Of a stretch of DNA of 64,000 nucleotides, positions 3,997 through 57,734 are shown one piece after another. Source of the DNA: Siphonodentalium dalli (lineage: Eukaryota > Mollusca > Scaphopoda > Gadilida > Siphonodentaliidae). The notes beneath the pieces are model-generated. The model ran no database searches. It was not told where the DNA came from and saw only the letters and a list, made by a program, of their open reading frames with translations. Location of the stretch: assembly GCA_032622095.1 (NCBI GenBank), contig CP136068.1:53376443-53440442 (forward strand). The letters run 5' to 3'. Position numbers and translations under genes: made by a program. Every line of letters begins with the position of its first letter. Position 1 is the stretch's first letter.

Positions 3997-4114
3997 ATCA
4001 CCTACAATGGCTGGAGGACTTTTTGCTGCTGATAGGAAATTTTTCTTTGAAATCGGTGCTTATGATAATGGGATGGAGGTGTGGGGAGGAGAAAATCTCG
4101 AAATTTCTTTCAGA
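3997..4114 (+). CDS. GALNT exon 3 (Gal/GalNAc-transferase motif)
   Basis: Encodes [17 protein letters not shown] through [18 protein letters not shown]. It has a TTTTTTTAG acceptor and donor [22 protein letters not shown] is the family's Gal/GalNAc-T signature, which forms part of the catalytic pocket and the loop that closes over UDP-GalNAc. The phase is 2 on entry and 0 on exit. The exon is shared by isoforms A and B. Confidence 0.95.
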
Positions 4115-7082: not shown

Positions 7083-7170
7083 ACTTGGATGTGTGGTGGA
7101 AAATTAGAATTCATTCCTTGCTCAAGAGTCGGCCATATATTCAGGTCCAGCCATCCATATACATTTCCAG
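7083..7170 (+). CDS. GALNT exon 4 (metal-ligand His)
   Basis: Encodes [20 protein letters not shown] then RSSHPYTFP plus the first base of Gly. The acceptor is TTTCAG and the donor CCAG|GTAAAA, leaving phase 1. The His in CSRVGHIFR corresponds to the family's third Mn2+ ligand, which acts with the DxH motif encoded upstream of this window. CGGKLE and the paired cysteines are typical of the family. Confidence 0.95.
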
Positions 7171-8724: not shown

Positions 8725-8822
8725 GTCATAAGGATACTCATGGTTTGAATTCTATGAGGCTGGCTGAAGTCTGGATGGATGGATACAAGAGATTGTACTA
8801 CAGCCACAGACGGGACTTGCTG
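8725..8822 (+). CDS. GALNT exon 5 (end of catalytic domain)
   Basis: Encodes GHKDTHGLNSMRLAEVWMDG then YKRLYYSHRRDLL. RLAEVWMDxYK is conserved in the family. The acceptor is TTTCAG and the donor DLL codon CTG|GTAAGATT. The donor is the first member of the 35-bp array that follows: the last bases of this exon plus the first 15 or so intron bases recur about 160 times downstream. Confidence 0.95.
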
Positions 8823-11800
8823 GTAAGATTAGATACCATGAGGGCCCCGGCCATGGATGGCTGGTAAGATTAGATACCGTGAGGGCCATGGATGGCTGGT
8901 AAGATTAGATACCGTGAGGGCCATGCTTGGCTGGTAAGATTAGATACCGTGAGGGCAATGGATGGCTGGTAAGATTAGATACCATGAAGGCCCCCGGCCA
9001 TGGATGGCTGGTAAGATTAGATACCGTGAGGGCCATGGATGGCTGGTAAGATTAGATACTGTGAGGGCCATGATTGGCTGATAAGATTAGATACCGTGAG
9101 GGCCATGGATGGCTGGTAAGATTAGATACCCTGAGGGCCATGGATGGCTTGTAAGATTCGATACCGTGAGGGCCATGGATGGCTGGTAAGATTAGATACC
9201 GTGAGGGCCATGGATGGCTGGTAAGATTAGATACCGTGAGGGCCATGATTGGCTGGTAAGATTATATACCGTGAGGGCTATGCTTGGCTGGTAAGATTAG
9301 ATACCGTGAGGGCCATGCTTGGCTGGTAAGATTAGATACCGTGAGGGCCATGGATGGCTGGTAAGATTAGATACTGTGAGGGCCATGGATGACTGGTAAG
9401 ATTAGATACTGTGAGGGCCATGGATGGCTGGTAAGATTAGATACCGTGAGGGCCATGGATGGCTGGTAAGATTAGATACTGTGAGGGCCATGGATGGCTG
9501 GTAAGATTAGATACCGTGAGGGCCATGGATGGCTGGTAAGATTAGATACTGTGAGGGCCATGGATGGCTTGTAAGATTAGATACTGTGAGGGCCATGGAT
9601 GGCTGGTAAGATTAGATACCGTGAGGGCCATGATTGGCTGGTAAGATTAGATATCGTGAAGGCCATGGATGGCTGGTAAGATTATATACCTTGAGGGCCA
9701 TGATTGGCTGGTAAGATTAGATATCGTGAAGGCCATGGATGGCAGGTAAGATTAGATACCGTGAGGGCCATGATTGGCTAGTAAGATTAGATACCGTGAG
9801 GGCCATGGATGGCTTGTAAGATTAGATACTGTGAGGGCCATGGATGGCTGGTAAGATTAGATACCGTGAGGGCCATGGATGGCTTGTAAGATTAGATACC
9901 GTGAGGGCCATGGATGGCTGGTAAGATTAGATACTGTGAGGGCCATGGATGGCTGGTAAGATTAGATACCGTGAGGGCCATGGATGGCTGGTAAGATTAG
10001 ATATCGTGAAGGCCATGGATGGCTGGTAAGATTATATACCTTGAGGGCCATGGATGGCTGGTAAGATTAGATACCGTGAGGGCCATGGATGGCTGGTAAG
10101 ATTAGATACCGTGAGGGCCATGGATGGCTGGTAAGATTAGATACTGTGAGGGCCATGGATGGCTGGTAAGATTAGATACTGTGAGGGCCATGGATGGCTG
10201 GTAAGATTAGATACCGTGAGGGCCATGGATGGCTGGTAAGATTATATACCGTGAGGGCCATGGATGGCTGGTAAGATTAGATACTGTGAGGGCCATGGAT
10301 GGCTGGTAAGATTAGATACTGTGAGGGCCATGGATGGCTTGTAAGATTAGATACCGTGAGGGCAATGGATGGCTGGTAAGATTAGATACCATGAAGGCCC
10401 CCGGCCATGGATGGCTGGTAAGATTAGATACCGTGAGGGCCATGGATGGCTGGTAAGATTAGATACTGTGAGGGCCATGATTGGCTGATAAGATTAGATA
10501 CCGTGAGGGCCATGGATGGCTGGTAAGATTAGATACCCTGAGGGCCATGGATGGCTTGTGAGATTCGATACCGTGAGGGCCATGGATGGCTGGTAAGATT
10601 AGATACCGTGAGGGCCATGGATGGCTGGTAAGATTAGATACCGTGAGGGCCATGATTGGCTGGTAAGATTATATACCGTGAGGGCTATGCTTGGCTGGTA
10701 AGATTAGATACCGTGAGGGCCATGCTTGGCTGGTAAGATTAGATACCGTGAGGGCCATGGATGGCTGGTAAGATTAGATACCGTGAGGGCCATGGATGGC
10801 TGGTAAGATTAGATACTGTGAGGGCCATGGATGGCTGGTAAGATTAGATACTGTGAGGGCCATGGATGGCTGGTCAGATTAGATACCGTGAGGGCCATGG
10901 ATGGCTGGTAAGATTAGATACTGTGAGGGCCATGGATGGCTGGTAAGATTAGATACCGTGAGGGCCATGGATGGCTGGTAAGATTAGATACTGTGAGGGC
11001 CATGGATGGCTTGTAAGATTAGATACTGTGAGGGCCATGGATGGCTGGTAAGATTAGATACCGTGAGGGCCATGATTGGCTGGTAAGATTAGATATCGTG
11101 AAGGCCATGGATGGCTGGTAAGATTATATACCTTGAGGGCCATGATTGGCTGGTAAGATTAGATATCGTGAAGGCCATGGATGGCTGGTAAGATTAGATA
11201 CCGTGAGGGCCATGGATGGCTGGTAAGATTAGATACCGTGAGGGCCATGGATGGCTGGTAAGATTAGATACCGTGAGGGCCATGGATGGCTTGTAAGATT
11301 AGATACCGTGAGGGCCATGGATGGCTGGTAAGATTAGATACCGTGAGGGCCATGGATGGCTGGTAAGATTAGATACCGTGAGGGCCATGGATGGCTGGTA
11401 AGATTAGATATCGTGAAGGCCATGGATGGCTGGTAAGATTAGATACCGTGAGGGCCATGGATGGCTGGTAAGATTAGATACTGTGAGGGCCATGGATGGC
11501 TGGTAAGATTAGATACCGTGAGGGCCATGGATGGCTGGTAAGATTAGATACCATGAAGGCCCCCGGCCATGGATGGCTGGTAAGATTAGATACCGTGAGG
11601 GCCATGGATGGCTTGTAAGATTAGATACCGTGAGGGCCATGGATGGCTGGTAAGATTAGATACTGTGAGGGCCATGGATGGCTGGTAAGATTAGATACCG
11701 TGAGGGCCATGGATGGCTTGTAAGATTAGATACCGTGAGGGCCATGGATGGCTGGTAAGATTAGATACTGTGAGGGCCATGGATGGCTGGTAAGATTAGA

Positions 11801-14450
11801 TACCGTGAGGGCCATGGATGGCTGGTAAGATTAGATATCGTGAAGGCCATGGATGGCTGGTAAGATTAGATACCGTGAGGGCCATGGATGGCTGGTAAGA
11901 TTATATACCGTGAGGGCCATGGATGGCTGGTAAGATTAGATACCGTGAGGGCCATGGATGGCTTGTAAGATTAGATACTGTGAGGGCCATGGATGGCTGG
12001 TAAGATTAGATACCGTGAGAGCCATGGATGGCTGGTAAGATTAGATACTGTGATTGCCATGGATGGCTGGTAAGATTATATACCTTGAGGGCCATGGATG
12101 GCTGGTAAGATTAGATACCGTGAGGGCCATGGATGGCTGGTAAGATTAGATACTGTGAGGGCCATGGATGGCTGGTAGGATTAGATACTGTGAGGGCCAT
12201 GGATGGCTGGTAAGATTAGATACCGTGAGGGCCATGGATGGCTGGTAAGATTATATACCGTGAGGGCCATGGATGGCTGGTAAGATTAGATACTGTGAGG
12301 GCCATGGATGGCTGGTAAGATTAGATACTGTGAGGGCCATGGATGGCTGGTAAGATTAGATACCGTGAGGCACATGATTAGCTGGTAAGATTAGATACCG
12401 TGAGGGCCATGGATGGCTGGTAAGATTAGATACCGTGAGGGCCATGGATGGCTGGTAAGATTAGATACTGTGAGGGCCATGGATGGCTGGTAAGATTAGA
12501 TACCGTGAGAGCCATGGATGGCTGGTAAGATTAGATACTGTGAGGGCCATGGATGGCTGGTAAGATTAGATACCGTGAGGGCCATGGATGGCTGGTAAGA
12601 TTAGATACCGTGAGGGCCATGGATGGCTGGTAAGATTAGATACTGTGAGGGCCATGGATGGCTGGTAAGATTAGATACCGTGAGGGCCATGGATGGCTGG
12701 TAAGATTAGATACTGTGAGGGCCATGGATGGCTGGTAAGATTAGATACCGTGAGGGCCATGGATGGCTGGTAAGATTAGATACCGTGAGGGCCATGGATG
12801 GCTGGTAAGATTAGATACCGTGAGGGCCATGGATGGCTGGTAAGATTAGATACTGTGAGGGCCATGGATGGCTGGTAAGATTAGATACCGTGAGGGCCAT
12901 GGATGGCTGGTAAGATTAGATACCGTGAGGGCCATGGATGGCTGGTAAGATTAGATACCGTGAAGGCCATGGATGGCTGGTAAGATTAGATACTGTGAGG
13001 GCCATGGATGGCTGGTAAGATTAGATACTGTGAGGGCCATGGATGGCTGGTAAGATTAGATACCGTGAGAGCCATGGATGGCTGGTAAGATTAGATACTG
13101 TGATTGCCATGGATGGCTGGTAAGATTATATACCTTGAGGGCCATGGATGGCTGGTAAGATTAGATACCGTGAGGGCCATGGATGGCTGGTAAGATTAGA
13201 TACTGTGAGGGCCATGGATGGCTGGTAGGATTAGATACCGTGAGGGCCATGGATGGCTGGTAAGATTAGATACTGTGAGGGCCATGGATGGCTGGTAAGA
13301 TTAGATACTGTGAGGGCCATGGATGGCTGGTAAGATTAGATACCGTGAGGGCCATGGATGGCTGGTAAGATTATATACCGTGAGGGCCATGGATGGCTGG
13401 TAAGATTAGATACTGTGAGGGCCATGGATGGCTGGTAAGATTAGATACTGTGAGGGCCATGGATGGCTGGTAAGATTAGATACCGTGAGGGCCATGATTA
13501 GCTGGTAAGATTAGATACCGTGAGGGCCATGGATGGCTGGTAAGATTAGATACCGTGAGGGCCATGGATGGCTGGTAAGATTAGATACTGTGAGGGCCAT
13601 GGATGGCTGGTAAGATTAGATACCGTGAGAGCCATGGATGGCTGGTAAGATTAGATACTGTGAGGGCCATGGATGGCTGGTAAGATTAGATACCGTGAGG
13701 GCCATGGATGGCTGGTAAGATTAGATACCGTGAGGGCCATGGATTGCTGGTAAGATTAGATACTGTGAGGGCCATGGATGGCTGGTAAGATTAGATACCG
13801 TGAGGGCCATGGATGGCTGGTAAGATTAGATACTGTGAGGGCCATGGATGGCTGGTAAGATTAGATACCGTGAGGGCCATGGATGGCTGGTAAGATTAGA
13901 TACCGTGAGGGCCATGGATGGCTGGTAAGATTAGATACCGTGAGGGCCATGGATGGCTGGTAAGATTAGATACTGTGAGGGCCATGGATGGCTGGTAAGA
14001 TTAGATACCGTGAGGGCCATGGATGGCTGGTAAGATTAGATACCGTGAGGGCCATGGATGGCTGGTAAGATTAGATACCGTGAGGGCCATGGATGGCTGG
14101 TAAGATTAGATACTGTGAGGGCCATGGATGGCTGGTAAGATTAGATACCGTGAGAGCCATGGATGGCTGGTAAGATTAGATACTGTGAGGGCCATGGATG
14201 GCTGGTAAGATTAGATACCGTGAGGGCCATGGATGGCTGGTAAGATTAGATACCGTGAGGGCCATGGATGGCTGGTAAGATTAGATACTGTGAGGGCCAT
14301 GGATGGCTGGTAAGATTAGATACTGTGAGGGCCATGGATGGCTGGTAAGATTAGATACCGTGAGAGCCATGGATGGCTGGTAAGATTAGATACTGTGAGG
14401 GCCATGGATGGCTGGTAAGATTAGATACCGTGAGGGCCATGGATGGCTGC
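8819..14450 (+). repeat. 35-bp minisatellite made of copies of a splice donor
   Basis: About 160 tandem units in GALNT intron 5. Each unit contains GCTGGTAAGATTAGATACC followed by GTGAGGGCCATGGATG. The first unit overlaps the end of exon 5: exon bases GCTG plus the real donor GTAAGATTAGATACC. The first spacing is 41 bp; from 8864 to the last donor at 14415 the 5551 bp equal 155 units of 35 bp plus 3 of 42 bp, and the three long variants (CCATGAAGGCCCCCGGCC) are visible near 8985, 10390 and 11550. Common variants are CCGTGAGGG/CTGTGAGGG, TTGTAAG, GATTATATACC and CATGATTGGC. Small minus-strand ORFs at 9052-9246 and 10459-10653 are by-products (three units equal 35 codons). Confidence 0.97.
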
Positions 14451-14740
14451 ATGGATTTTTTCGGGACACCTGTTTTCTGACCATGATATGCTGAAGGCAT
14501 ATCCCAAAGGGTTACGGCCTGAGTTTGGGCGGATATGGGAGGTGTACCTCTCCCATTGACAAGGGGTTTGGGTTCTCACCCAAGATAATTTTTGAAAATG
14601 ATATGCATTGAGAGAGAGAGTCTAAGGCTCTCTCAGCCTCTCTGACTCACTATTTTGGAGAGAGAGTTAGGACAGTTTATTAAAATTAACTTTTGAAATT
14701 CAAATAGATATAGGCCTACATGTATGTATTGTAAATGGGG

Positions 14741-14830
14741 TTGATACTATCTATGCATGGGTATGGGTATGGGTATCAAAATTGCTTGATACTATCTATG
14801 CATGGGTATGGGTATGGGTATCAAAATTGC
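14741..14830. repeat. Two-copy 45-bp tandem duplication
   Basis: Two copies of TTGATACTATCTATGCATGG with GGTATGGGTATGGGTATC and AAAATTGC, just before the exon 6 acceptor. The GA/CT-rich stretch 14610-14660 precedes it. Confidence 0.9.
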
Positions 14831-14860
14831 TTCCAGTCTCATTAATTAATTTATTTTTAG

Positions 14861-14995
14861 GGCCAAGATTATGGTGATATATCAGAACGGAAGGCTCTGA
14901 GGCAGAGACTCAATTGTAAAAGCTTCAGATGGTATTTGGAGAATGTTTATCCTGAAAAGTTCATTCCAGATGAAAACGTCCATTCCTGGGGCATG
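14861..14995 (+). CDS. GALNT exon 6 (catalytic-lectin linker)
   Basis: Encodes [36 protein letters not shown] and [32 protein letters not shown] is the hallmark end of the GALNT catalytic region just before the lectin domain. Phase 0 at both ends, acceptor TTTTTAG, donor ATG|GTGAGT. It lies 410 bp after the end of the minisatellite, so its normal partner exon is 6 kb upstream across the repeat. Confidence 0.95.
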
Positions 14996-15610: not shown

Positions 15611-15718
15611 CTCCGCAATCCGACCAGTAATATATGCCTGGACACGCTACAGAAAGATGAGAAGATGATATTTGACATTGGTTTGTTTGGCTGTCAGAAT
15701 GGCGCCAGTGCTGGACAG
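15611..15718 (+). CDS. GALNT exon 7 (lectin alpha repeat)
   Basis: Encodes LRNPTSNICLDTLQKDEKMI, then FDIGLFGCQNGASAGQ. This is the ricin-B alpha repeat: CLD with its sugar-binding Asp, the second Cys in GCQN, and the Q of a Q-x-W/F motif at the exon end that continues as VF in the next exon. Phase 0/0, acceptor TTGCAG, donor CAG|GTGTGT. Confidence 0.93.
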
Positions 15719-16243: not shown

Positions 16244-16375
16244 GTTTTCTCCTTGAGCATGAATGATGAGCTGCGACGAGAAGATGGATGTTTAGCAGCT
16301 AATGGCAAAGACAATGAACGTCTCAAGCTGTCACCATGCACTGGCACCAAATTCCAGAAGTTTAAGCATGATAAA
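16244..16375 (+). CDS. GALNT exon 8 (lectin beta repeat, degenerate)
   Basis: Encodes VFSLSMNDELRREDGCLAAN, GKDNERLKLSPCTGTKFQKF and KHDK. It is the beta repeat of the lectin domain, with a conserved Cys pair (GCLA, SPC). CLD is replaced by CLA and QxW by QKF, so this repeat probably does not bind GalNAc. Phase 0/0, acceptor ATATTCAG, strong donor AAA|GTAAGT. Confidence 0.92.
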
Positions 16376-17690: not shown

Positions 17691-19623
17691 TGAAAGTGTC
17701 AATGACACTGTAGCTCAACTTAGGTAGGGGAATAATTTAATGGTTGACAGTAAATGGAGGAATAGGAAAGATGCTAATTGAAATGTCTAACCTAGCTGTG
17801 CCAAAGGATTTAGTCATGCAAAGAGTAAAATCCAAGATGGCTGCTGACGGCCATGTTTTTTGGCCGAATGACCCCAAAATGACTCGTTCCCATCTACATG
17901 TCAATATTACCATTCATGACAAATTTCATGATGATCAGACGAATAGTACGACCTTTCGCCCGTGCCAATGAATTTAATTTTGAAATCCAAGATGGCCACC
18001 AACGGCCATGTTTTTTGGCCGAATGGCCCCAAAATAACTCGTTCCCATTTACATGTCAAGGTCAACAGCCATGACAAATCTCATAATGATCTGACCAAAG
18101 GTACGACATGTAGCCTGTGCCAAAGGATTTAGTCATGCAAAGAGTAAAATCCAAGATGACTGCTGGCGGCCATGTTATTTGGCCGAACGATGCCAAAATG
18201 ACTCGTTCCCATCTACATGTCATTGTTAACATCCATGACAAATTTCATGAAGTTCCGACCAAAGCTACGACCTGTAGCTCGCGCCAAAGGATTTAGTCAT
18301 GCAAAAAGTAAAATCCAAGATGGCTGCTGGCGGCCATGTTTTTCGGCCGGACAACCCCAAAATGACTCGTTCCAATCTACATGTCATTGTTAACATCCAT
18401 GACAAATTTCATGCAGTTCCGACCAAAGTTACGACCTGTAGCCCGCGCCAAAGGATTTAGTCATGCAAAGAGTAAAATCCAAGATGGCTGCTGGCGGCCA
18501 TGTTTTTCGGCCGAACAACCCCAAAATGACTCGTTCCAATCTAAATGTCATTGTTAACATCCATGACAAATTTCATGAAGTTCCGACCAAAGCTACGACC
18601 TGTAGCCCGCGCCAAAGGATTTAGTCATGCAAAGAGTAAAATCCAAGATGGCTGCTGGTGGCCATGTTTTTCGGCCGAACAACCCCAAAATGACTCGTTC
18701 CCATCTACAGGTCATTGTTAACATCCATGACAAACTTCATGAAGTTCTGACCTAAGCTACGACCTGTAGCCCGCACCAAAGGATTTAGTCATGTAAAGAG
18801 TAAAATCCAAGAGGGCTGCTGGCAGCCATGTTTTTTGGCCAAACAAGCCCAAAATCACTCGTTCCCATCAACATGTCAATATTAACATCCATGACAAATT
18901 TCATGATGATCAGACGAACAGCACGACCTCTAGCCCGCGCCAATGGATTGAATTTTGAAATCCAAGATGTCCGAATGACCCTAAAATGACTCGTTTCCAT
19001 CTACATTCCAATTTCAACAGCCATGACAAATTTTATGATGATCAGACTAAAGGTACGACCTGTAGCCCGTGCTAAAGGATTTAGTCATACAAAGAGTAAA
19101 ATCCAAGATGGCTGCTGGCCGAATGACCCCAAAATGACTCGTTCCCATCTACATGTCATTGTTAACATCCATGACAAATTTCATGAAGATCCGACTAAAG
19201 CTACGACCTGCAGCCCGCGCCAAAGAATTTAGTCATGCGAAGAGTAAAATCCAAAATGGCTCCTGGCGGCCATGTTTTTTTACAGAACGACCCCAAAATG
19301 ACTCGTTTCCCATCTACATGTCAATATTAACATCCATGACAAATCTCATGATGATCAGACGAACGGTATGACCTGTAGACCACCGCGCCAATGGATTTAA
19401 TTTTGAAATCCAAGATGGCCACCAGCGGCCATGTTCTTTGGCCGAATGACCCCAAAATGACTCGTTCCCATCTACAAGTCAATGTCAACATTCATGACAT
19501 ATTTCATAATGATCAGACCAAAGGTACGACCTGTAGCCCACGCCAAAGGAAATTGTTGATGGACACACGGACGACGGACGCCAACCCACGGCAATAGCTC
19601 AAACTTACAAAGTAAGTTGAGCT
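17691..19623 (+). mobile_element. Repeat element with internal 164-bp tandem array, copy 1
   Basis: Starts near TGAAAGTGTCAATGACACTG TAGCTCAACTT and ends at a hairpin, AGCTCAAACTT..AGTTGAGCT then AA. The inside is a tandem array of a 164-bp unit (exact spacing 18293, 18457, 18621, 18785, counted at TTAGTCAT), each with ATCCAAGATGGCTGCTGGCG, CCCAAAATGACTCGTTCCCA and ATCCATGACAAATTTCATGA. The other copies are 44385-45450 and 51592-52911 (minus) and 56443-57734 (plus). The short ORFs inside are not conserved. A Helitron-like non-autonomous element is possible from the terminal hairpin, but not shown. Confidence 0.75.
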
Positions 19624-19792: not shown

Positions 19793-19933
19793 AAAACAGG
19801 TCAAGTGGTGCATGAGAGCAGCGGCAAATGTCTGGACAGTCCAATACCGAAAAACAGTGAATATGCCGTCATAAACCCATGTAACAACAAACCATCACAG
19901 TTCTGGGCGTTTGAACACTATCTAAACAGCTAA
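19793..19933 (+). CDS. GALNT last exon (lectin gamma repeat and stop)
   Basis: Encodes KTGQVVHESSGKCLDSPIPK, NSEYAVINPCNNKPSQFWAF and EHYLNS, then TAA at 19931-19933. The gamma repeat keeps CLD and QFW, the intact ricin-B signature. Adding the visible exons with either A or B gives 340 residues, against a usual total near 560-620, so 220-280 N-terminal residues are missing upstream. A possible poly(A) signal AATAAA is at 20341, weakly supported. Confidence 0.95.
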   Translation, partial: KTGQVVHESSGKCLDSPIPKNSEYAVINPCNNKPSQFWAFEHYLNS

Positions 19934-20829: not shown

Positions 20830-21270
20830 CCCTTTCATGACGGGAGCTGTGCTGGTGCAGCATTAGAGATCCTATGCCAGTGCATTATCTTATATATGCG
20901 AGTCTCTCATAGGCAGTCTTGCATATATAAGAGAATACTCTGGTGTTTTAGCTTCTTCCTGAGATGGTAAAGAGAGTTTATCTCACTTCTATGCTAAATG
21001 TTGAAAGCAGTTAACCCTTTCATGACTGGAGCTTCCTGAATTTTTGCGAAAACACTGTGCCATTTAAAACAAAATATTTGTGAGTTGCCCATAGGGCGCC
21101 TTGCATTTATCAGAGAATGCATTGGCCTAGCAATATTTACCTTGATCTTGTTAGGCAGTGCATTCTCTTATATATGCGAGGCTCCCTATGAGAGACTCGC
21201 GCATATATAAGAAATTGCACTGGCGCAGGGTATATAATGCTGCACCAGCGCAGCTCCCATCATGAAAGGG
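20830..21270. mobile_element. TTAA-flanked MITEs with CCCTTTCATGA ends
   Basis: Begins after TTAA (20826-20829) with CCCTTTCATGACGGGAGC then TGTGCTGGTGCAGCATTA, and ends with the complement TAATGCTGCACCAGCGCAGC then TCCCATCATGAAAGGG and TTAA (21271-21274). A further internal left end, TTAA plus CCCTTTCATGACTGGAGC at 21011-21032, suggests two abutting copies (20830 to about 20960, and 21015-21270). Each has a central foldback CTTATATATGCGAG. A TTAA duplication with CCC-starting inverted ends is the piggyBac pattern. Confidence 0.8.
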
Positions 21271-28320: not shown

Positions 28321-29480
28321 TGGGAGGCCCTTTTCACATTTCTTATTTATTTGAGCTTAAGCATTCCAAATATGTGTCTTATCAATTTATTTGCGCTTAA
28401 GCATAATCATTTGCTCTTAAGCATAAATCATTTGCGCTTAAGTGAAAATACTTAAGACTCCCTTACTTCCCTCCGATTGTGAATGATTGAAGAAAAAACA
28501 TATTTCAATATTCATATCAGCATCCCTATCCCTGTTGTCCCAAGAATTGGTGCCTCACTCCCGGAGCTCTGGTATATTTTATTAAAGGGAGATCTCCTGC
28601 ACAGATATATACAATTTCCATGGCCATAAAAAGGGAATTAGGGGTTACTGGGGGGCTTGTTTCACTCATACAGTGTGCTTATTGACTTGAAATAGGGGAC
28701 AAAATCAGCATCCCTGCCACCAATAATTTGTGTCTCCATCCCAGAGATCTAGTTTATTTTATAACAGAAATATCCTGCACAGATAGATCTATACCATTTC
28801 CATGGTCATAAAGAGGGTAGTATGGGTTACTGTGGGATTGCTTCCCTGATGGTGGGCCTATATAAACATGAGTGATCGATGTATTCAGGCCTGTGCCATT
28901 TAAAATTAATTATACCCCCCCGCAACGAAGTTGGGGGTGGGAGTTTACTGGAATCAGCTTGTCCGTCGTCCGTGGACACAAATTTGTCCGGAGTTTTTCT
29001 CAGTCGGTTTTTTATCATTTTCCGTGAAACTTGGCACAGACATCAACCACCATGGGAACCTGTCTGTCAGACTTTATTTGGTGGAGTTATCCCCCTTTTT
29101 TTACTTAGAAAATTGTTTGCAACATGCATAATTTTGTCCGACCTTTTATTCCTACATTTTTAGGTCAATAGGTTTAGGATTAGGGTTAGGATTGTGCACC
29201 CGCAATGGGAATCTGTTATTTTATTATTTTAACTAAGTGTTTACTCACATGACATGTGAAACATCTTAGAGTTTTAAAAACATGGGGGGGGGGGATATAT
29301 ACTTACTCCTTACTCCCATTGGGACAGTCACACCTCTAGTTCAGGGTCAATGCATATGAATTTTTGTTTGAGTGCAAATGATTTCCGCTTATTAAAGTGT
29401 AAATATTTGCGCTTAAGCGCAAATGACATATTATTTGCGATTAAGCGCAAATAAGGAATAAATGTGAAAACGGCCTCCCA
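28321..29480. mobile_element. TIR element with TTTGCGCTTAAGCGCAAA palindromes
   Basis: Inverted ends TGGGAGGCCCTTTTCACATT and AATGTGAAAACGGCCTCCCA. Inside each end lie several perfect or damaged palindromes of the form TTTGCGCTTAAGCGCAAA (28350-28445 and 29385-29455). The centre holds a Helitron-like insertion (28912-29339) and two copies of a GGGTTACTG/CATCCCTACC segment. The same TGGGAGGCC...CACATTTAT ends occur on the 31697-34367 element. Confidence 0.8.
28912..29339 (+). mobile_element. Helitron-like non-autonomous element, copy 2
   Basis: Same start (TACCCCCCCGCAACGAAG) and same 3' end (TCCCATTGGGA hairpin, then CTAG|T at 29336-29340) as the copy at 24050, nested within the palindrome TIR element. 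Confidence 0.7.
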
Positions 29481-29744
29481 TTCCACTTGAATGATTTACA
29501 ATTCAACGTGGAGATATCAATCTGTTGATAAACTTGGAAGAGGTGACCAAGGCAAGGACTCAAGAGTGGAATCCTGAAACATGACCGCCTACACCAAATG
29601 GCACAAGAACGTTTGTGGCGCATTGGAAAACGGCCAGGTCACTCACTATATATAGCCCATTACCATTAGTTGTACACCGTAGAAAATTATCTGTAAAGCT
29701 TGAAATGTCCTAAGTTTTTTACTTTTTATTTTACTTTTCATGCA

Positions 29745-31693
29745 CAAACTTGTCATTTGTATTTTACTGGTTTTGTTTCTATGACCCTGATCTATTGCCT
29801 GTCCAACTTTTGAAATTTGATGGAAGTGATGGATTTACTGTTAATTTTTATAAATATTTTTGGAAAGACTTGGGGCAATATTTGATAAATTCATTAAATT
29901 ACAGTCAATTATCACAAGAAATGTCAACCACACAAAGATGTGGAATAATAACTTGCATTCCAAAACCTAATAAAAATAAACTCCTTTTGAAAAATTGGAG
30001 ACCTATTACACTTTTAAATGTAGATGCTAAAATAGCATCAACAGTTATTGCTAACTGCATAAAAAAGTACCTACCAGAACTTATATCTAGTTCACAACTT
30101 GGATTTATGTCAGGGCGCTATATTGAAGAGTCAACTAGACTCAACTTTGACTTGATAGAGAAGTGTGAAAAAAATCAGATTTCGGGCATACTTGCAACTC
30201 TTGACTTCGAAAAGGCATTTGACTCGTTGGAATGGAGTTTTATTCAGAAAAGCTTAATTTTCTTTGGATTTGGCCCTTTATTGAGAAACTGGGTAAAAAC
30301 TTTCTACAACAATATATATAGTTATGTCATTAATAATGGGAATATAACAAATAAAATCGACATTAATAGAGGAGTAAGACAAGGCGACCCACTATCACCT
30401 TACCTCTTTATCCTATGCGCGGAAATACTTAGTGCCAATATTAAATTTAACCCAGAGATAAAAGGTATACAAATAAAAGGATCAGAATACACTGTAACCC
30501 AATATGCAGATGACTTAAACCTCTTCCTCCAGGATGATCAGAAATCCCTCGATACAGCATTAAATACTTTTGAAGTTTTTGCAGCCATCTGAGTGATCAG
30601 ACCTAAAAATCAATTATGACAAAACACAAGCCATATGGATAGGTGCAAAACGGGGTTGTGTTGAGGAAATTATTACGGATAAAAAAATAATATGGAACCA
30701 TAACCAATCTATTACAATCCTTGGAATTGAATATAATCTATTCAGTGAGAATTATATAGAAAATAACTATCACAAAAAGATACAAAAAATAGATAATTTA
30801 TTGAACGATTGGTCATTCAGAAACCTTAGCCTATATGGTAAGACAACTGTTGTAAAGACACTGGCCTTGCCTATGTTAACACACTGTTTCTCAGTTCTAC
30901 CTTCACCCTCTCAAGAGGTGTCTGAAAAATTAAAAAAAGTTATTTTCAAATTTTTATGGTCAGGAAAGCCAGACAAAATTAAAAGAAATGTAATGATAAA
31001 CAACTGGGAAAATGGGGGAATTTTATTCCCCCACATTGACTCATTTTTATAAAGCATTAAAGATGACTTGGATTAAAAAAGTTTTAGACCCACAGACAGA
31101 AGCTGGTTGGAAAACATTACTGGTAGATGATCTAGAAACTTTCGGTGGCCACAAAATATGGAACCTTCATAAAGAAGGGCTTAAGATATTGAGTAACACA
31201 CTATCCATTCTGGAAGGATGTGATAAATGAATGGTCCAGTTTGGATAAAAATATTACCATAACCCCAGAAGATGAGATATTAAAAGAACCGCTATATTAT
31301 AATCAAAACATATTGGTGAATCAAAAAATGTTCTTTAATAAAACATGGATTAAAAAAGGCATATACATTTTAAACGATCTTATTGAAGAAAACTCAGGGC
31401 TACTGGAATACGAGAGTTTCTGTAAAAAATATGATATAAAAACTCCCTTCACCACCTATAATTGGTTACTTGCAGCATTACCAGCTTCCTGGAAGCAATA
31501 TTCTATCCAATATTCTTAGAGCAATACTCTAAACCCCCAGATATATCTAAAAAAAATGGGAAGACAGATTAGAAATAAAGTTCACGATAGATGAATGGAA
31601 AAGAAACTACACAAAAACTAGTAAAATTACAAATGACACAGATCTATTGTCTTTTCAGTTTAAAATAAATCATAACATTTTATATACTAACAC
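29745..31693 (+). mobile_element. L1/Tx1-like LINE, reverse transcriptase remnant
   Basis: A non-LTR retrotransposon ORF2 fragment. The first frame (29750-30592) carries NWRPITLLNVDAKIAS, LGFMSGRYIEES, DFEKAFDSLEWSF, GVRQGDPLSPYLF and the catalytic QYADD box. Coding then shifts frame near 30590 (LKINYDKTQAIW), and again near 31010-31230, each followed by recognisable C-terminal LINE sequence up to FQFKINHNILYTNT at 31625-31693. The 5' end is truncated (no endonuclease), and the 3' end stops exactly where the palindrome-bearing TIR element begins at 31697. The element is inactive. Assignment to L1/Tx1 rests on the RT motif style. Confidence 0.88.
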
Positions 31694-31696
31694 ATA

Positions 31697-34367
31697 TGGG
31701 AGGCCAAATTCACATTTATTAATAATTGCGCTGAAGCGCAATTCAATTGCACTGAAGCGCAATTCAATTGTGCTGAAGCGCAATCCAATTGCACTGAAGC
31801 GCAATCCAATTGCGATGAAGCGCAATCCAGCTTGATTCATATCAATTGCGCTGAAGCGCAATTCAATTGCGCTGAAGCGCAATTATTGTTACAAGCTCAA
31901 ACCCCTGAATAGATAGGTTATTCCATTATCATCAATTCATATGGGATATCCACCAATTGCGATTCAGCGCAATTCAAAATTAATTGCGCTTCAGCGCAAT
32001 TAATTTTTCACATACTACCCAAGCAATTCAATTGCGCTTCAGCGCAATTATTATTATTAAAGTTGGGTTGAAAATTAACTGGTATCGCATCGCAATTTGC
32101 TACCCAAATTTGGATAATAGCTTTGCAATTTGGTATGAATTTTATATGATTTCAGAACAATGCTATCTAATTATGTCATGAGGTTATTTGATAATCAAAA
32201 TTTGAAAAGTAATTTGCTCCCTGAATAGGTGGGTTATTCCACTATCATAAATTCATATGCGATACCAACCAATTGTGCTTCAGACTGCTTCCTTGCCTCT
32301 TATCATGAGTATTATGAGTTAACTTATAAAGACAGTAAACAATCATGAGAGCACCCCTACCTTTTACATTAAGGGCTGAGAGGATAATATCAAATTATTT
32401 ATGGACTGAGTCATTTTTATTCGTTTAAAACCACATCTCAGAAAATTCTTTAGAAGTCTTCATGAGTGAGTCACATACAGAAGGAATAAAGGCAAGGAGA
32501 CTAAGTTTCCCCTGCCACACCACATAATAGCGTTCCTTTCAGGGCGACTCACAAAACATTTCCTTCTGTTTTAGTCGGTGTGACTCTCGATAGCATTACC
32601 TTATGTATTAGTCGGGGTAACTTGCGACACCGCGCGGGTACCTTCTGTTTTAGTCGGGGCAACTAATGATAGCATTATAATCTGTATGAATCGGGCCGAC
32701 TCGTGATAGCATTGCCTTCTGTATTAATCAGGGGGACTCACAATAGCATATTTCCTTCTGTTTTAGTCGGTGCTACTCGTGATAGCATATATTACATTCT
32801 CTATTAATCGTGAAGACTCGCAATAGAATTAGCTTCTGTTTTAGTCGGGGCTACTCGTAATAGCATTATCTTCTGTTTTAGTTGGGCCGACTCGCGATAG
32901 CATTATCTTCTGTATTAGTCGGGGTAGACTCACAATATATATAATTATCTTCTGTTTCAGTCAGGGCGACTTGCAATAGCAATAATTAGCTTCTGTATTA
33001 GTTGGGGCGACTCGCAATACCAGTACCTTCTGTTTTGTTCTGTTTTTGTTTTAGTTGGGAAAATAATTGCGCTGAAGCGCAATTATTTTTCTATTGGATT
33101 TATTCATACCGGTACCTTCCGTTTTAGTTGGGAAAATAATTGCGCTGAAGTGCAATTGAATTGCGCTGAAGCGCAATTATTTTTCTATTGGATTTATTCA
33201 TTAATTAACTGGGGGGTTTAGCCATATATGAAAAATGAATTGCGCTTCAGCGCAATTAATTATGAATTGCGCTTCAGCGCAATTGAATTGCGCTTCAGCG
33301 CAATTATTAATAATAATATTAACTAGAATGCACTCAGAGAGATGTCAACGTGCGCAAAAATGTAATAAACAATAATTTAAAAAAAAAATTCACTGTATTT
33401 TACTTTATTTAATTTAATTTAATTTAATGTATTCACTGTATTTAAATTTATTTTATTTAATTTAATGTTTATAGCAAAAAAAGACAATTACCATTTCTCA
33501 TTTCATCACAGATAAAAGGCAAATTACTATATTAATCATTTAAGTAATTAAAACCAATTCCATGTTGCCGAAAGGATAAGACTTTAATATCGATTACATT
33601 TTTTTCAGCGGCATATTTTCATTTTCATTTTCCGATAGTCAAAGTTGACCAAAGGAGCAATTATAACAAATAATTAATACCATTTGTGTAAATATTGATA
33701 GCAGCCAATATGCAACAATAAATATCAATAATTAATCAATAATTAATCAATAACGATCATTTTATGTAATAATAAACTCTTCAAACGGTGTTTGTGTCAA
33801 CAAATGCGTTTTGTTTTGTGTTACGTCATTCGTCGTATTTGAACCCGGAACTCGGCTGAAGGTTAGGCTATTCAGCCTATTGCGTCGAATTACGAAATCG
33901 CGTTTTGAATGTCTCTCTTTTCCCGCACGATAAAAAGAGGTCTTCGCACGAACCAAAAATGATAAAACTTCCAAATTATAAGTAAAAATAACCAAATGAA
34001 GGCGTCTATGTAGGTCCCGAAGGAGTATATAGACTCTTTGATATAGAGTTCTGATGGAGAAAATGTAGGTCGATCTATTTTTGTCATAACTCTGACGTAT
34101 TTTAATATATATGGCTACCCCCCCCCCCAGTTAATTAATGAATAAATCCAATAGAAAATTAATTGCGCTTCAATTAAATTGCGCTTCAGCGCAATTATTT
34201 TCCCATATCAGTATGGGAACCCCCAGTTAATTAATGGAATAACCTATCTATTCAGGGGTGTAAGCTTGTAACAATAATTGCGCTTCAGCGCAATTGATAT
34301 GAATTCAATCAAGATGCATGGATTGCGCTTCAGCGCAATTATTAATAAATGTGAATTTGGCCTCCCA
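31697..34367. mobile_element. 2.7 kb TIR element with arrays of a 20-bp palindrome
   Basis: Left end TGGGAGGCCAAATTCACATT, right end its exact complement, flanked by TA (31695-31696, 34368-34369). The inverted homology continues inward through TTGTTACAAGCT and CCCCTGAATAGATAGGTTAT (31895-31925 versus 34235-34275). About 20 copies, some damaged, of AATTGCGCTGAAGCGCAATT or its reverse form AATTGCGCTTCAGCGCAATT occur at 31722-31885, 31955-32050, 33062-33305 and 34158-34340. An inner inverted pair (CTATTGGATTTATTCATTAA) brackets 33172-34165. A degenerate GTTTTAGTCGGGGCGACTCG array fills 32520-33060. No transposase ORF is seen; 33780-34090 is CpG-enriched unknown sequence. It cuts into the end of the LINE. 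Confidence 0.88.
32520..33060. repeat. Degenerate tandem repeat, TTCTGTTTTAGTCGGGG
   Basis: Roughly a dozen diverged units of about 40-50 bp (TTCTGTTTTAGTCGGGGCGA then CTCGCGATAGCATTACC) in the interior of the palindrome TIR element. Confidence 0.8.
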
Positions 34368-41160: not shown

Positions 41161-42499
41161 TGCGAACGCAAACGGAGCAACGGTTTCTATATATACGAGT
41201 ATTTTCGGTCCAATAAAAATTCGGAGCGTCAGAATTTTACTGTATATACACGGCACCCTTCCGTTGGATGGTCATATCCAGTGATTATATCATGCTAGTT
41301 TGAGCTGCATTCTGTTGAAGCCCCTGGTTGAATTCCGGAATATTACGATATGGGTTGTCATATAATTTGCGGGCATCGGTCTCTATCCAGGCTGTTGCAT
41401 TGCGCCGTTCATTCGAATGAAATGTTACTGTTCCGGGCATTAACTGGATCAATAGCAAATATACAGTTCAGCCTTGTATGCACGACACGAGCATAGAATG
41501 CCGCTCCGCGGCATGACATGTTTCTCCGAACGGCGAACGGCTATCACCTCCTCCGGGCACATGCATGGAAAAGGGCCGTTCGTTCGAATGGTACGAACCC
41601 CCCTGGCTACGGGCTTGGTCAAACAAAGGATGTTGTATGATGCCCCCGTTATATACTCTTTCACACTCCAAACAATCTCCGCCCAGATGAGTCCAACACG
41701 ATCAGTCCCTTGGGCGATTTAGGTCAAATGACAGTGCATGGCCCCAAATATTCCCTCAATTCGATCCATGCACAACATCCCACCCGATCCAAAATGGTCA
41801 CCGACCAAAGCATCACACGAGCGGATTTCTTGTGCTTTATCGATCATGTAGGTACAGCGTTATTGACGCATTACTGTCAAGCTGTCCTCTATAGCAAAAA
41901 TACTGTGGCCCACAAAACAGTCTTTAGAAACACTGGTTAAAATGGACGCTGCACAGAGGGATCCGAATATGGAACCCATATCCGAATATGGAACCCATAT
42001 GTCATTACTCAGCCCTCATATTGTAATACACAATACAGTATTTTGAAACACTCCACTCATTAAAAATGGACTCCACTCAGAGGGGTCTGAAAAGCTAGGG
42101 CACCCATGTCATTGATCAGTCCTCTTGTTCGATTTCGTTCAAACAAAGGGTGTTGTGTGTTGGTCTCATTACATCCGTTCGACTGCCTAATGCCCAACCC
42201 CAATCCAAAATGACCTCCGAACACCCTACCCCAATTTGTCCAAAAATAGGGAAAAGTCGTATCTTAGTCCCTTGGCCGATTTAGATCAAACGATGGGTGA
42301 TGTAGGGTGGCTTCCAAGACTCCATTGTGAACCATGCACCCTAACTGATCCTAAATGGTCGGCGCCCAAAGGCAACACACGAGCAGACTGATATCTGACC
42401 AGTGTTTATCGAATTAGCCTGCATGAACAGCTACATCGTCATTGACATACATTGTACCCGCTACTATTGCGTTTAAACGCAATAAATTATTGCGTTTAA

Positions 42500-43605
42500 A
42501 CGCAATGTTATGGCATTTAGATGCAATGTTATTACATTTAAACACATTTTTTTTTATTGTCACCCATGTGACTGCAATTGGCTTCCGTACAGATCAGAGT
42601 TCAATCTAAATTTTTTTTTTTAAATTTAATATAAATAAATTTTGTTTTAAATGTTTAAAGATAAAAATTTGCACAAATCATACATGAGTGTTTCAGCCAG
42701 TGCAAGTGCTGATGTGTTCACCTCAGAAGTCGATCTCACGTAACAGACAACATTTATATGGGCAAAGTCTTATTACCAGTGGGCAGTACTACCGCTGTGG
42801 GCGTGGTCTCTGTGTAAAGCTCCATTATCCTGCCATTTGATTTTGATATTTATGTATCCATGGCAACGGCCCAAATCTCGTCCGAAGTCACCTCATGGGT
42901 TGGGGTGAAATCGGACACTTATATAGAACATGAAATAAAACTCCAAATTATACAGAGGATCCAGACTAAATGTACCTGGATTATGATTTCTTTTAATCAA
43001 AATGTTTCATTGATAAAGCATAGACCATTAGTATAGCTGCCCAGGAGCTATTATAGCTCATTATATATATACATGTATTTAGGCCTACCCTGCCACTGTG
43101 ATGGACCAAGTGCAATTCTAACAGATCACTCCATAATGTTCGCTGCAGTTAAAAAACGTTCAACAGCATATGGAAAATAATCTACGGTCAGTGTGTGAAG
43201 AATTAAGTATGTCATAACACAGAAGGCCTAATGGCGAATACATTGAAATTAACAGGAATGCAAATGCAATGATTCACGGCTCATCAAATGATGCAGGGAC
43301 AATTAATGCTGACATGGTGATTTTCACATGCTTGGGTTAGTTACATGTACCGGGTATGTGTGAATAAATTTGTGGATATCATGCAGTATATTGATGGGAA
43401 ATATTCCGACCTACCCACACGTGTGTGTACTCTTCATGCATGTATTTCGTTATGGCATAAGATCCAACTAGGAGAGCCACCACATGCGATTCATATTCAC
43501 ACTGTTGACCTGTGTTGACAGGATTATTTCGGACACCACCCAAGGGGTCACAAAAACAAATATCACTACATTGCTATGATGGCTTAAAGAATATATATAA
43601 AAAAG
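42500..43605. other. MRPL17 intron 1, unannotated part
   Basis: AT-rich tracts at 42600-42660, otherwise no repeat or gene recognised. Confidence 0.5.
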
Positions 43606-48404: not shown

Positions 48405-48569
48405 TCTCTACTCTGGGTACTCCTAGAGAGATCATGTTCCATCAGTTCAAAACCTCGGAATGTTTAATTCAAAACCTCTTAGTTCAAAACCTCGGAATGT
48501 TTTGAAGTTCTGATGAGGAACTTTATAACATTGAAAAAATAATGTAAGTAATATATTTCTTAGTTAAAA

Positions 48570-50390
48570 CATGTTCCTTGATAATGTATATCACAGTAGG
48601 TGAAGGTCTCAGTGTAAGATTAAACATGTTCCTTGATAATGTATATCACAGTAGGTGAAGGTCTCAGTGTAAGATTAAATGATTTAAACATGTTCCTTGA
48701 TAATGTATATCACAGTAGGTGAAGGTCTCAGTGTAAGATTAAACATGTTCCTTGATAATGTATATCACAGTAGGTGAAGGTCTCAGTGTAAGATTAAACA
48801 TGTTCCTTGATAATGTATATCACAGTAGGTGAAGGTCTCAGTGTAAGATTAAATGATTTAAACATGTTCCTTGATAATGTATATCACAGTAGGTGAAGGT
48901 CTCGGTGTAAGATTAAATGATTTAAACATGTTCCTTGATAATGTATATCACAGTAGGTGAAGGTCTCAGTGTAAGATTAAATGATTTAAACATGTTCCTT
49001 GATAATGTATATCACAGTAGGTGAAGGTCTCAGTGTAAGATTAAACATGTTCCTTGATAATGTATATCACAGTAGGTGAAGGTCTCAGTGTAAGATTAAA
49101 CATGTTCCTTGATAATGTATATCACAGTAGGTGAAGGTCTCAGTGTAAGATTAAATGATTTAAACATGTTCCTTGATAATGTATATCACAGTAGGTGAAG
49201 GTCTCAGTGTAAGATTAAATGATTTAAACATGTTCCTTGATAATGTATATCACAGTAGGTGAAGGTCTCAGTGTAAGATTAAATGATTTAAACATGTTCC
49301 TTGATAATGTATATCACAGTAGGTGAAGGTCTCAGTGTAAGATTAAATGATTTAAACATGTTCCTTGATAATGTATATCACTGTAGGTGAAGGTCTCAGT
49401 GTAAGATTAAATGATTTAAACATGTTCCTTGATAATGTATATCACAGTAGGTGAAGGTCTCAGTGTAAGATTAAACATGTTCCTTGATAATGTATATCAC
49501 AGTAGGTGAAGGTCTCAGTGTAAGATTAAATGATTTAAACATGTTCCTTGATAATGTATATCACAGTAGGTGAAGGTCTCAGTGTAAGATTAAACATGTT
49601 CCTTGATAATGTATATCACAGTAGGTGAAGGTCTCAGTGTAAGATTAAATGATTTAAACATGTTCCTTGATAATGTATATCACAGTAGGTGAAGGTCTCA
49701 GTGTAAGATTAAATGATTTAAACATGTTCCTTGATAATGTATATCACAGTAGGTGAAGGTCTCAGTGTAAGATTAAATGATTTAAACATGTTCCTTGATA
49801 ATGTATATCACAGTAGGTGAAGGTCTCAGTGTAAGATTAAATGATTTAAACATGTTCCTTGATAATGTATATCACAGTAGGTGAAGGTCTCAGTGTAAGA
49901 TTAAACATGTTCCTTGATAATGTATATCACAGTAGGTGAAGGTCTCAGTGTAAGATTAAATGATTTAAACATGTTCCTTGATAATGTATATCACAGTAGG
50001 TGAAGGTCTCAGTGTAAGATTAAACATGTTCCTTGATAATGTATATCACAGTAGGTGAAGGTCTCAGTGTAAGATTAAATGATTTAAACATGTTCCTTGA
50101 TAATGTATATCACAGTAGGTGAAGGTCTCAGTGTAAGATTAAACATGTTCCTTGATAATGTATATCACAGTAGGTGAAGGTCTCAGTGTAAGATTAAATG
50201 ATTTAAACATGTTCCTTGATAATGTATATCACAGTAGGTGAAGGTCTCAGTGTAAGATTAAACATGTTCCTTGATAATGTATATCACAGTAGGTGAAGGT
50301 CTCAGTGTAAGATTAAATGATTTAAACATGTTCCTTGATAATGTATATCACAGTAGGTGAAGGTCTCAGTGTAAGATTAAATGATTTAAG
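48570..50390. repeat. Two-length minisatellite, 30 units of 55 or 64 bp
   Basis: Every unit starts CATGTTCCTTGATAATGTAT and ends GTGTAAGATTAAA; long units add TGATTTAAA. Reading the array gives 30 units: numbers 1, 3, 4, 8, 9, 15, 17, 22, 24, 26 and 28 are short, the other 19 long. 11 x 55 + 19 x 64 = 1821 bp, which equals the observed span exactly. Only two internal substitutions were noticed (CTCGGTG in unit 6, CACTGTAGG in unit 14), apart from the degenerate end. It lies in MRPL17 intron 1. Confidence 0.97.
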
Positions 50391-56442: not shown

Positions 56443-57734
56443 TGAAAGTGTCAATTACCTTGTAAAGAAGGTAATTTTTTTGTGATGAGCAATGAATAGA
56501 GAGATTAAAAAGGAGTGTAAAAAATGAGCAGTAAAGGATTTAGTCACACACAGAGTAAAATCCATGATGGCTGCTGGCGGCCATGTTTTTTGGCCGAATG
56601 ACCCCAAAATGACTCGTTCCCATCTACATGTTATTGTTAACATCCATGACAAATTTTATGATGATCAGACTAAAGGTACGACCTTTAGCCTGTACTAAAG
56701 GAATTAGTCATACAAAGAGTAAAATCCAAGATGGCTGCTGGCGGCCATTTTTTTGGCCGCTTGACCCCAAAATTAATCGTTCCCATCTACATGTCAATAT
56801 TAACATCCATGACAAATTTCATGATGATCAGACGAACAGTACGACCTGTAGCCCGTGCTAATGCATTGAATTTTGAAATCCAAGATGGCTGCTGGTGGCC
56901 ATGTTTTTTGTCCGAATGACCCCAAAATGACTTGTTCCCATCTACATTCCAATTTCAACAGCCATGATAAATTTCATGATGATCAGACTAAAGGTACGAC
57001 CTGTAGCTCGTGCTAAAGGATTTAGTCATACAAAGAGTAAAATCCAAGATGGCTGCTGGCGGCCATGTTTTTTGGCCGAATGACCCCAAAATGACTCGTT
57101 TCCATCTACATGTCAATATTAACATCCACGACAAATTTTATGATGATCAGACTAAAGGTATGACCTGTAGCCCGCGCTAAAGGATTTAGTCATACAAAGA
57201 GTAAAATCCAAGATGGCTGCTGGCAGCCATGTTTTTTGTTCGAATGAACCCAAAATTACTCGTTCCCATCTACATGTCATTATTAACATCCATGACAAAT
57301 TTTATGATGATCCGACCAAAGGTACACCTGTAGCCCGTGTTAAAGGATTTAGTCATGCAAAGAGTAAAATCCAAGATGGCTGCTGGCGGCCATGTTTTTT
57401 GGCCGAATGACGACAAAATTACTCGTTCCCATCTACATGTCAATATTAACATCCATGACAAATTTCATGACGATCAGTACGGCCTGTAGCCCGTGGTAAT
57501 GGATTGAATTTTGAAATCCAAGATGGCCACTGGTGGCCATGTTTTTTTTCCGAATGACCCCAAAATGAATCATTTCGGTCTAAATGTTGATGTAAACAGC
57601 TATGACAAATTTCATAATGATCCGATCAAAGGTACGATCTGTAGCCTGTATTGTTGACGCATCACGTAGACATGCACACACGGACGACAAAGCCATGGCA
57701 ATAGCTCAAACTTTACAAAGTAAAGTTGAGCTAA
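56443..57734 (+). mobile_element. 164-bp-repeat element, plus-strand copy 2
   Basis: Starts ATGAAAGTGTCAATTACC and ends ACGGACGACAAAGCC, then AATAGCTCAAACTTTACAAA and GTAAAGTTGAGCTAA. Same internal unit as 17691-19623. It ends 153 bp before MRPL17 exon 4. Confidence 0.8.

Follow-up and report, generated by a model that had tools for sequence, protein, structure and literature searches.

A 35-bp minisatellite across an exon–intron boundary repeats the 5′ splice site of a GALNT gene about 160 times

How is a 5′ splice site chosen when most of the intron behind it consists of further copies of the same site? This question is raised by a window of 64,000 nucleotides from Siphonodentalium dalli (C8:53376443-53440442, in an assembly of 2.23 Gb and 9 contigs), in which a gene for a polypeptide N-acetylgalactosaminyltransferase (GALNT) carries a 35-bp minisatellite that begins inside exon 5 and fills most of intron 5. 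An earlier note on this DNA had pointed to the array and had offered several mechanisms by which it might act or be tolerated. The analysis presented here indicates that the array is probably a tolerated minisatellite of the kind called a mirage, in which the donor closest to the exon wins.

Tandem Repeats Finder (TRF) detected the array at 8849-14449 with a period of 35, 159.4 copies and a match of 94%, and a fuzzy scan for GCTGGTAAGATTAGAT, which tolerates up to 3 substitutions, revealed 160 copies with starts at 8819, 8860, 8895 and onward to 14411. Both confirm the claim of the earlier note that the array starts within the border of exon 5 and that GCTG/GT (the slash marks the junction) is at once the true donor and the core of the unit; the core is GCTG/GTAAGATTAGAT, and its left end lies 4 nt inside exon 5, taking in GCTG only. 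The 159 steps between copies measure 35 bp in 155 cases, 42 bp in three and 41 bp in one. The donor hexamer GTAAGA is intact in 154 of the 160 copies, and the nine bases of the true donor that form the U1 pairing site, CTGGTAAGA, are kept in 142, the true donor included. The roughly 160 near-perfect donors of the note were thus largely recovered, but two copies carry AT in place of GT, so that the possible decoys downstream number 157. The second donor-like word that the note had seen in most units, GTGAGG, does occur 133 times in the array, but its median score in a simple donor matrix is 0.48 against 5.17 for the main donor word.

The array accounts for 5,627 of the 6,038 bp of intron 5 (93%) and is bordered by unique sequence at both edges; its length of 5.6 kb is beyond chance. 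There are 24 unit types in the exon-proximal 80 units and 15 in the distal 80, and stretches 6 to 9 units long reappear at shifts of, for example, 1,120, 1,442 and 1,645 bp. The recurring blocks and the uneven spread of unit types are the pattern expected from block exchange, and the distal material is more uniform and perhaps younger than the exon-proximal material. When the variability of the unit was compared over 35 circular windows, five of them, the donor hexamer counted, varied as little as the hexamer or less. Selection to keep the donors was rejected on this rank, which is nothing special.

The gene was assigned to GALNT by its translation and by matches in the PDB, where 16 distinct sequences at E <= 0.001 match the joined translation of exons 5 and 6 and GALNT9 is the best (2.7e-20). 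Exons were found at 3997-4114, 7083-7170, 8725-8822, 14861-14995 and 15611-15718 (lectin domain), with another starting at 16244 and the last at 19793-19933; the numbers 5 and 6 used here for the third and fourth of these follow the earlier note. The single match to the catalytic domain seen upstream lies ~8.4 kb before the window. When exon 5 (8725-8822) is joined to exon 6 (14861-14995), the reading frame is uninterrupted, and the true donor at this junction scores 5.17, higher than 40 of 54 sampled donors. GALNT paralogs (e.g. L009/L025 and L012/L021) are also interrupted by an intron at roughly this position. Intron 5 therefore probably predates the array, and its creation by the duplication was rejected for the same reason.

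Translation also revealed what the downstream copies would do. Among the 159, use of 156 would extend the exon into an in-frame stop, donor 2 (at 8864) would add 41 nt that hold no stop but shift the frame, and the remaining two have no GT. This is as the earlier note had stated, with the TAA met at 8865 on read-through and a stop for every usable donor from the third (8899) onward. A good acceptor was not found in the array, where at most 8 of the 14 positions ahead of any AG are pyrimidines, and the poly(A) words AATAAA, ATTAAA, AGTAAA and TATAAA were all absent from it, with one ATTAAA in the remaining 411 nt of the intron. Because the array has neither a good acceptor nor any poly(A) word searched, the decoys have no obvious pseudo-exon partner, and the main effect of a decoy would be competition with the true donor for the acceptor of exon 5.

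Predicted RNA structure did not set the true donor apart. Its accessibility ranked 39, 34 and 157 of 160 at three window sizes, and structure was therefore rejected as the reason why the first donor wins. Exon 5 together with the first units folds better than shuffled sequences (z -2.31), and this fold was likewise rejected as the cause of donor choice since it does not single out the true donor. As the true donor and most decoys are identical in nine bases and structure does not distinguish them, position would have to decide donor choice if GALNT protein is made.

Comparable structures are described in the literature. Minisatellites spanning an exon–intron boundary were named mirages in amphioxus, where they were described in Adh3 and in the globin genes BflGb6 and BflGb9 and where regular splicing was reported; the BflGb6 mirage has 6 and 3 units in its two haplotypes (PMC3087553). 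Like these, the window array covers exon and intron across a junction, here supported by frame and homology, and its copies retain the splice signal (GTAAGA in 154/160). For length instability between alleles or cells, a further mark of mirages, the recurring blocks in this one assembly would be an indirect sign at most. It differs in scale, since the amphioxus mirages have few copies where numbers are given, whereas the window array has 160. The host genome is also unlike amphioxus. A peptide joined from two of its muscle myosin loci scores 268.7 to 266 bits with scallop and squid entries of the PDB and at most 249 with those of tarantula and human; by this comparison, in which no entry was an annelid or brachiopod by its name, the source is probably a mollusc or something closely related. 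In human factor VII (F7), intron 7 (IVS7) contains highly homologous 37-bp repeats with the true donor in the first and cryptic donors downstream, and splicing normally uses the most upstream donor alone (PMC6627357). In the window gene, too, the repeats bear donors and the first of them holds the true one, and the unit lengths are nearly equal. However, the genes are unrelated, and it is the F7 case that was tested in cells. The number of repeats in F7 IVS7 is variable but small, about 5 to 8. Tandem duplication that includes splice signals is also the basis of intron gain under the Rogers model, as described for potato RNA-dependent RNA polymerase (RdRp) and vertebrate ATP2A1 (PMC4974935), but the window array lengthened an existing intron and created none. 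In human segmental duplications, the repeats have units of ~30 bp, number ~4 on average and are often also retained in transcripts; the likeness to the window is that minisatellites at exon–intron boundaries can alter gene structure (PMC2812944). Against the openly licensed literature searched, the kind of structure is already described, and what is new here is the size of the array (~160 copies), the lineage and a measured frequency.

This frequency was obtained from a survey of exon edges at 30 loci each of the GALNT, myosin head and CCT chaperonin families, which were picked for their protein similarity, without regard to repeats. The four GALNT loci of the window itself (L004, L005, L010, L011) were left out of the counts. 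Loci that were taken as intronless from their long open frames (L001-L003, L061, L062), or near-duplicates (L018, L064, L072, L075, L077, L084, L090) were dropped, as were L024, which shares its donor with the first exon of L007, and ends without a callable boundary. Collapsing near-identical myosin copies reduced the donors from 67 to 54 and the acceptors from 68 to 56. Six donors (L007 twice, L009, L012, L017, L022) and one acceptor (L017) were added by hand, and the L021 acceptor was set to the last copy.

TRF placed 7 of 59 donors inside a tandem array (L007, L009, L013, L023, L037, L081, L085), against 6.2 expected (P(>=7)=0.43), and 2 of 56 acceptors (L008, L021), against 5.9 expected (P(<=2)=0.055). 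The expectations come from the repeat coverage of the flanks, which is 9.9% over 57 loci (GALNT 15.7%, myosin 4.9%, CCT 9.0%); TRF on a single strand, which missed L013, gave 6/59 donors and 2/57 acceptors. A strict 18-mer test for a nearby copy was positive at 4/54 donors (L013, L023, L037, L085) and 3/56 acceptors (L008, L067, L082), while the background at intronic test positions was 7.7% (417/5,442) for donors and 7.3% (411/5,667) for acceptors. This test missed the TRF-positive L081 and L021, and neither L009 nor the second exon of L007 was in its set. Arrays thus fall on donors at about the frequency seen in the rest of the introns; this small sample shows no clear preference for donors and no clear avoidance of them, and tandem duplications over exon edges were seen in all three families. 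Acceptors look mildly avoided by TRF; the 18-mer test adds L067 and L082, and 4/56 acceptors (L008, L021, L067, L082) are positive by either test. Nearby repeats were found for 18/849 exon-interior test words against 417/5,442 intronic ones, in keeping with selection against arrays within exons. According to single-strand TRF before two junction corrections, arrays cover 4-6% of the last 500 nt ahead of acceptors and 12-16% of the first 500 nt past donors. Sparser arrays before acceptors would fit the need for a branch point and a pyrimidine tract, a hint that comes from long arrays at few loci.

Several of these boundary arrays belong to GALNT paralogs. In L013, the most clear-cut case (C8:28601800; reverse complement, ~1577-2045), TRF found a period of 86 and 5.4 copies, each tandem copy holding ~50 nt of exon, the donor and ~40 nt of intron, and the true donor and four copies all read GGGTAAGAGC. 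The exonic share of the window array, 4 nt, is far below the ~50 nt of L013. In L009 (reverse complement, ~1641-2464), the exon end homologous to exon 5 is amplified in units of 48 and 93 bp, both of which are multiples of three. The acceptor side is affected in L021, where the repeated unit includes the acceptor of the homologous intron (reverse complement, 1387-1550; 46 bp x3.5), and in L008 (1135-1538; 60 bp x6.7); in both, the acceptor called true is the copy closest to the exon. In the CCT family, L085 has a 39-bp donor array. Beside these, the GALNT paralog L014 has a 39-bp x9.9 minisatellite (1635-2021) that starts ~13 nt past the donor, with CTGGTAGTG in most of the units shown, and an array of AAGGTAAGT with 47-bp spacing on the same strand lies at C4:24393976-24394407, within the span of a CCT gene (matches from C4:24384047 to 24399817). 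The latter may be another donor array.

Donor words were also counted over the genome as triples, that is, three copies with gaps of 20-50, with the reversed word as control; these counts are of matches, not of arrays, and a few long arrays dominate them. Triples of CAGGTAAGT numbered 1,559 against 295 for the control (5.3 times commoner); the single word, at 14,385, is rarer than its reverse, at 21,203. Triples were rarer than the reversed control for AAGGTAAGT (120 vs 385) and for CTGGTAAGA (685 vs 2,345), where the 685 include the window array and 2,288 of the 2,345 control matches are on one strand. On contig C1, the matches listed (to 257.6 Mb) formed ~7 clusters for CAGGTAAGT, and the control formed 3. 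A genome-wide excess of donor arrays was rejected, since one word lies above its control and two lie below, and taken together the word counts do not point consistently to selection for donor arrays.

We propose that a short tandem duplication arose with its left end 4 nt into exon 5, taking the true donor along, and that it would have grown to ~160 units, probably partly through block exchange. Donor choice would fall to the exon-adjacent copy, either by exon definition or by an oriented 5′-to-3′ selection, and the other 157 GT-bearing copies would be removed as inert intron. Because the choice would go to this copy, the gene could tolerate the array; leaky use of a decoy would nearly always yield transcripts with an early stop. 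The earlier note had listed tolerance "because the first donor wins" among its mechanisms, and this is the best supported of those it offered, judging from the layout shared with F7 and amphioxus and from a donor count (7/59) close to the 6.2 expected.

Several points weigh against this explanation, in which exclusive or near-exclusive use of the 8822/8823 junction is inferred. The F7 and amphioxus cases have far fewer copies where numbers are given, and extending the likeness to 160 is an extrapolation. The survey is small, its families are unequal, and its positives include two-copy duplications; TRF gives at least 2.5 copies for 4 of the 7 donor positives, and in none does the number approach 160. 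Two of the seven, the L009 donor and that of the second L007 exon, are among the six donors that were added by hand after the arrays had been seen, and without these six the count is 5/53. The stricter 18-mer test found acceptor positives, L067 and L082, that TRF did not report. The 5.3-fold excess of CAGGTAAGT triples could hint at a donor bias, with the two other words pointing the opposite way.

The alternative that survives best, though we consider it unlikely, is that the array acts as a splicing rheostat, in which the 157 extra GT donors compete for U1 or slow the commitment of exon 5; GALNT output would then be tuned by the number of copies, by way of delayed splicing or of decay of mis-spliced RNA. 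It is consistent with the 142/160 copies that keep CTGGTAAGA, with a true donor stronger than 40/54 sampled donors, with the stop that 156/159 downstream copies would yield, with predicted structures that do not consistently favour the true donor (rank 39, 34 and 157/160), and with CAGGTAAGT triples above the reversed control. However, the donor columns are not specially conserved (5/35 windows), arrays span donors about as often as the background predicts, and triples of AAGGTAAGT and CTGGTAAGA fall below their reversed controls, though a few long arrays dominate these counts. It is improbable that donor-spanning arrays in this lineage are heritable, highly mutable splicing dials, with the 160-fold array as the extreme of a genome-wide class; in such a dial, each unit would add a U1 docking site and delay the commitment of exon 5, and GALNT output would follow copy number.

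Three other explanations are very poorly placed. Telescripting, in which U1 bound to the array shields the intron from premature polyadenylation, would make use of the many U1-complementary sites on the sense strand; it is most improbable, as the array has none of the four poly(A) words, the rest of the intron (411 nt) has one ATTAAA, and the array, as 93% of the intron, would mostly protect itself. Once its 5,627 bp are taken from the 6,038 bp, no long intron is left to protect. Among the functions suggested in the earlier note, a U1 small nuclear ribonucleoprotein sink that delays exon 5, protection from early polyadenylation and tuning of GALNT output by copy number all came out without positive evidence, given the donor columns, the content and extent of the array and the conflicting genome-wide donor word counts. 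It is no more credible that a dispersed satellite or a transposon-derived repeat landed in the intron and supplied the donor. Other families in the window and at the surveyed loci are dispersed, such as one of 164 bp, but a two-unit probe against the 2.23-Gb assembly gave at least 75 matches, and all those listed lie inside the window array; the intron position is common to paralogs in which no such unit was seen. Such counts are lower bounds, and a missing match is no proof of absence. On these listed matches, an introner or mobile element carrying splice sites was rejected along with a dispersed satellite. Finally, the assembly may have inflated or collapsed an array of different real length, as repeated blocks of up to 9 units are hard to assemble, but this has very little probability given 32 irregularly ordered unit types and unique sequence at both edges.

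Table 1. Coordinates of exon 5, the array and their neighbours in the window
Feature	Position	Strand	Remarks
Exon 5, GALNT, 98 nt	8725..8822	+	Acceptor TTTCAG/GTCATA, donor TTGCTG/GTAAGA; translation and PDB matches
35-bp minisatellite across the junction of exon 5 and intron 5, with 32 unit types among 160 copies	8819..14449	+	
First unit, 41 bp, the sole one reaching the exon	8819..8859	+	Resembles the 42-bp units at 8965, 10372 and 11534
True 5′ splice site GTAAGA, phase 0	8823..8828	+	Joins the frame to 14861, no stop
In-frame TAA on read-through beyond the true donor	8865..8867	+	Translation
Rest of intron 5, 411 nt	14450..14860	+	45-bp x2 duplication at 14741-14832; acceptor ATTTTTAG
Exon 6, GALNT	14861..14995	+	Donor GGCATG/GTGAGT

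Other repeats were noted in passing. The 164-bp tandem family, which is dispersed and satellite-like, occupies 17800-19550 and 56532-57646 of the window and was seen by eye also in L016, L029, L032, L068, L071 and L080. A tandem array at 48567-50389 has units of 55 and 64 bp (11 and 18 spacings) with the words TCAGTGTAAGATTAAA and AGTAGGTGAAGG, and no exon was identified at its edge. Broken frames at 29714-31519 resemble the reverse transcriptase of a long interspersed nuclear element (FEKAFDSLEW, YADD; by eye only), and short palindromic units of 21 bp, e.g. AATTGCGCTGAAGCGCAATTC, occur in several places at 28389-34188 and 42465-42543. Outside the window, C4:158.5M-291.7M contains many similar muscle-type myosin exons, some with an internal TAG in the match, and 11 donors of this stretch form one near-identical group, which suggests a recent expansion.

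With 157 GT-bearing copies behind the true donor, the gene is a natural stress test of 5′ splice site choice: because most copies match the true donor in nine bases, sequence by itself cannot decide and position must. About one in ten of the sampled donors (7/59) lies inside a tandem duplication. With this share, the genome would be a ready panel of natural variants in donor copy number, on which oriented scanning, exon definition and intron growth could be studied.

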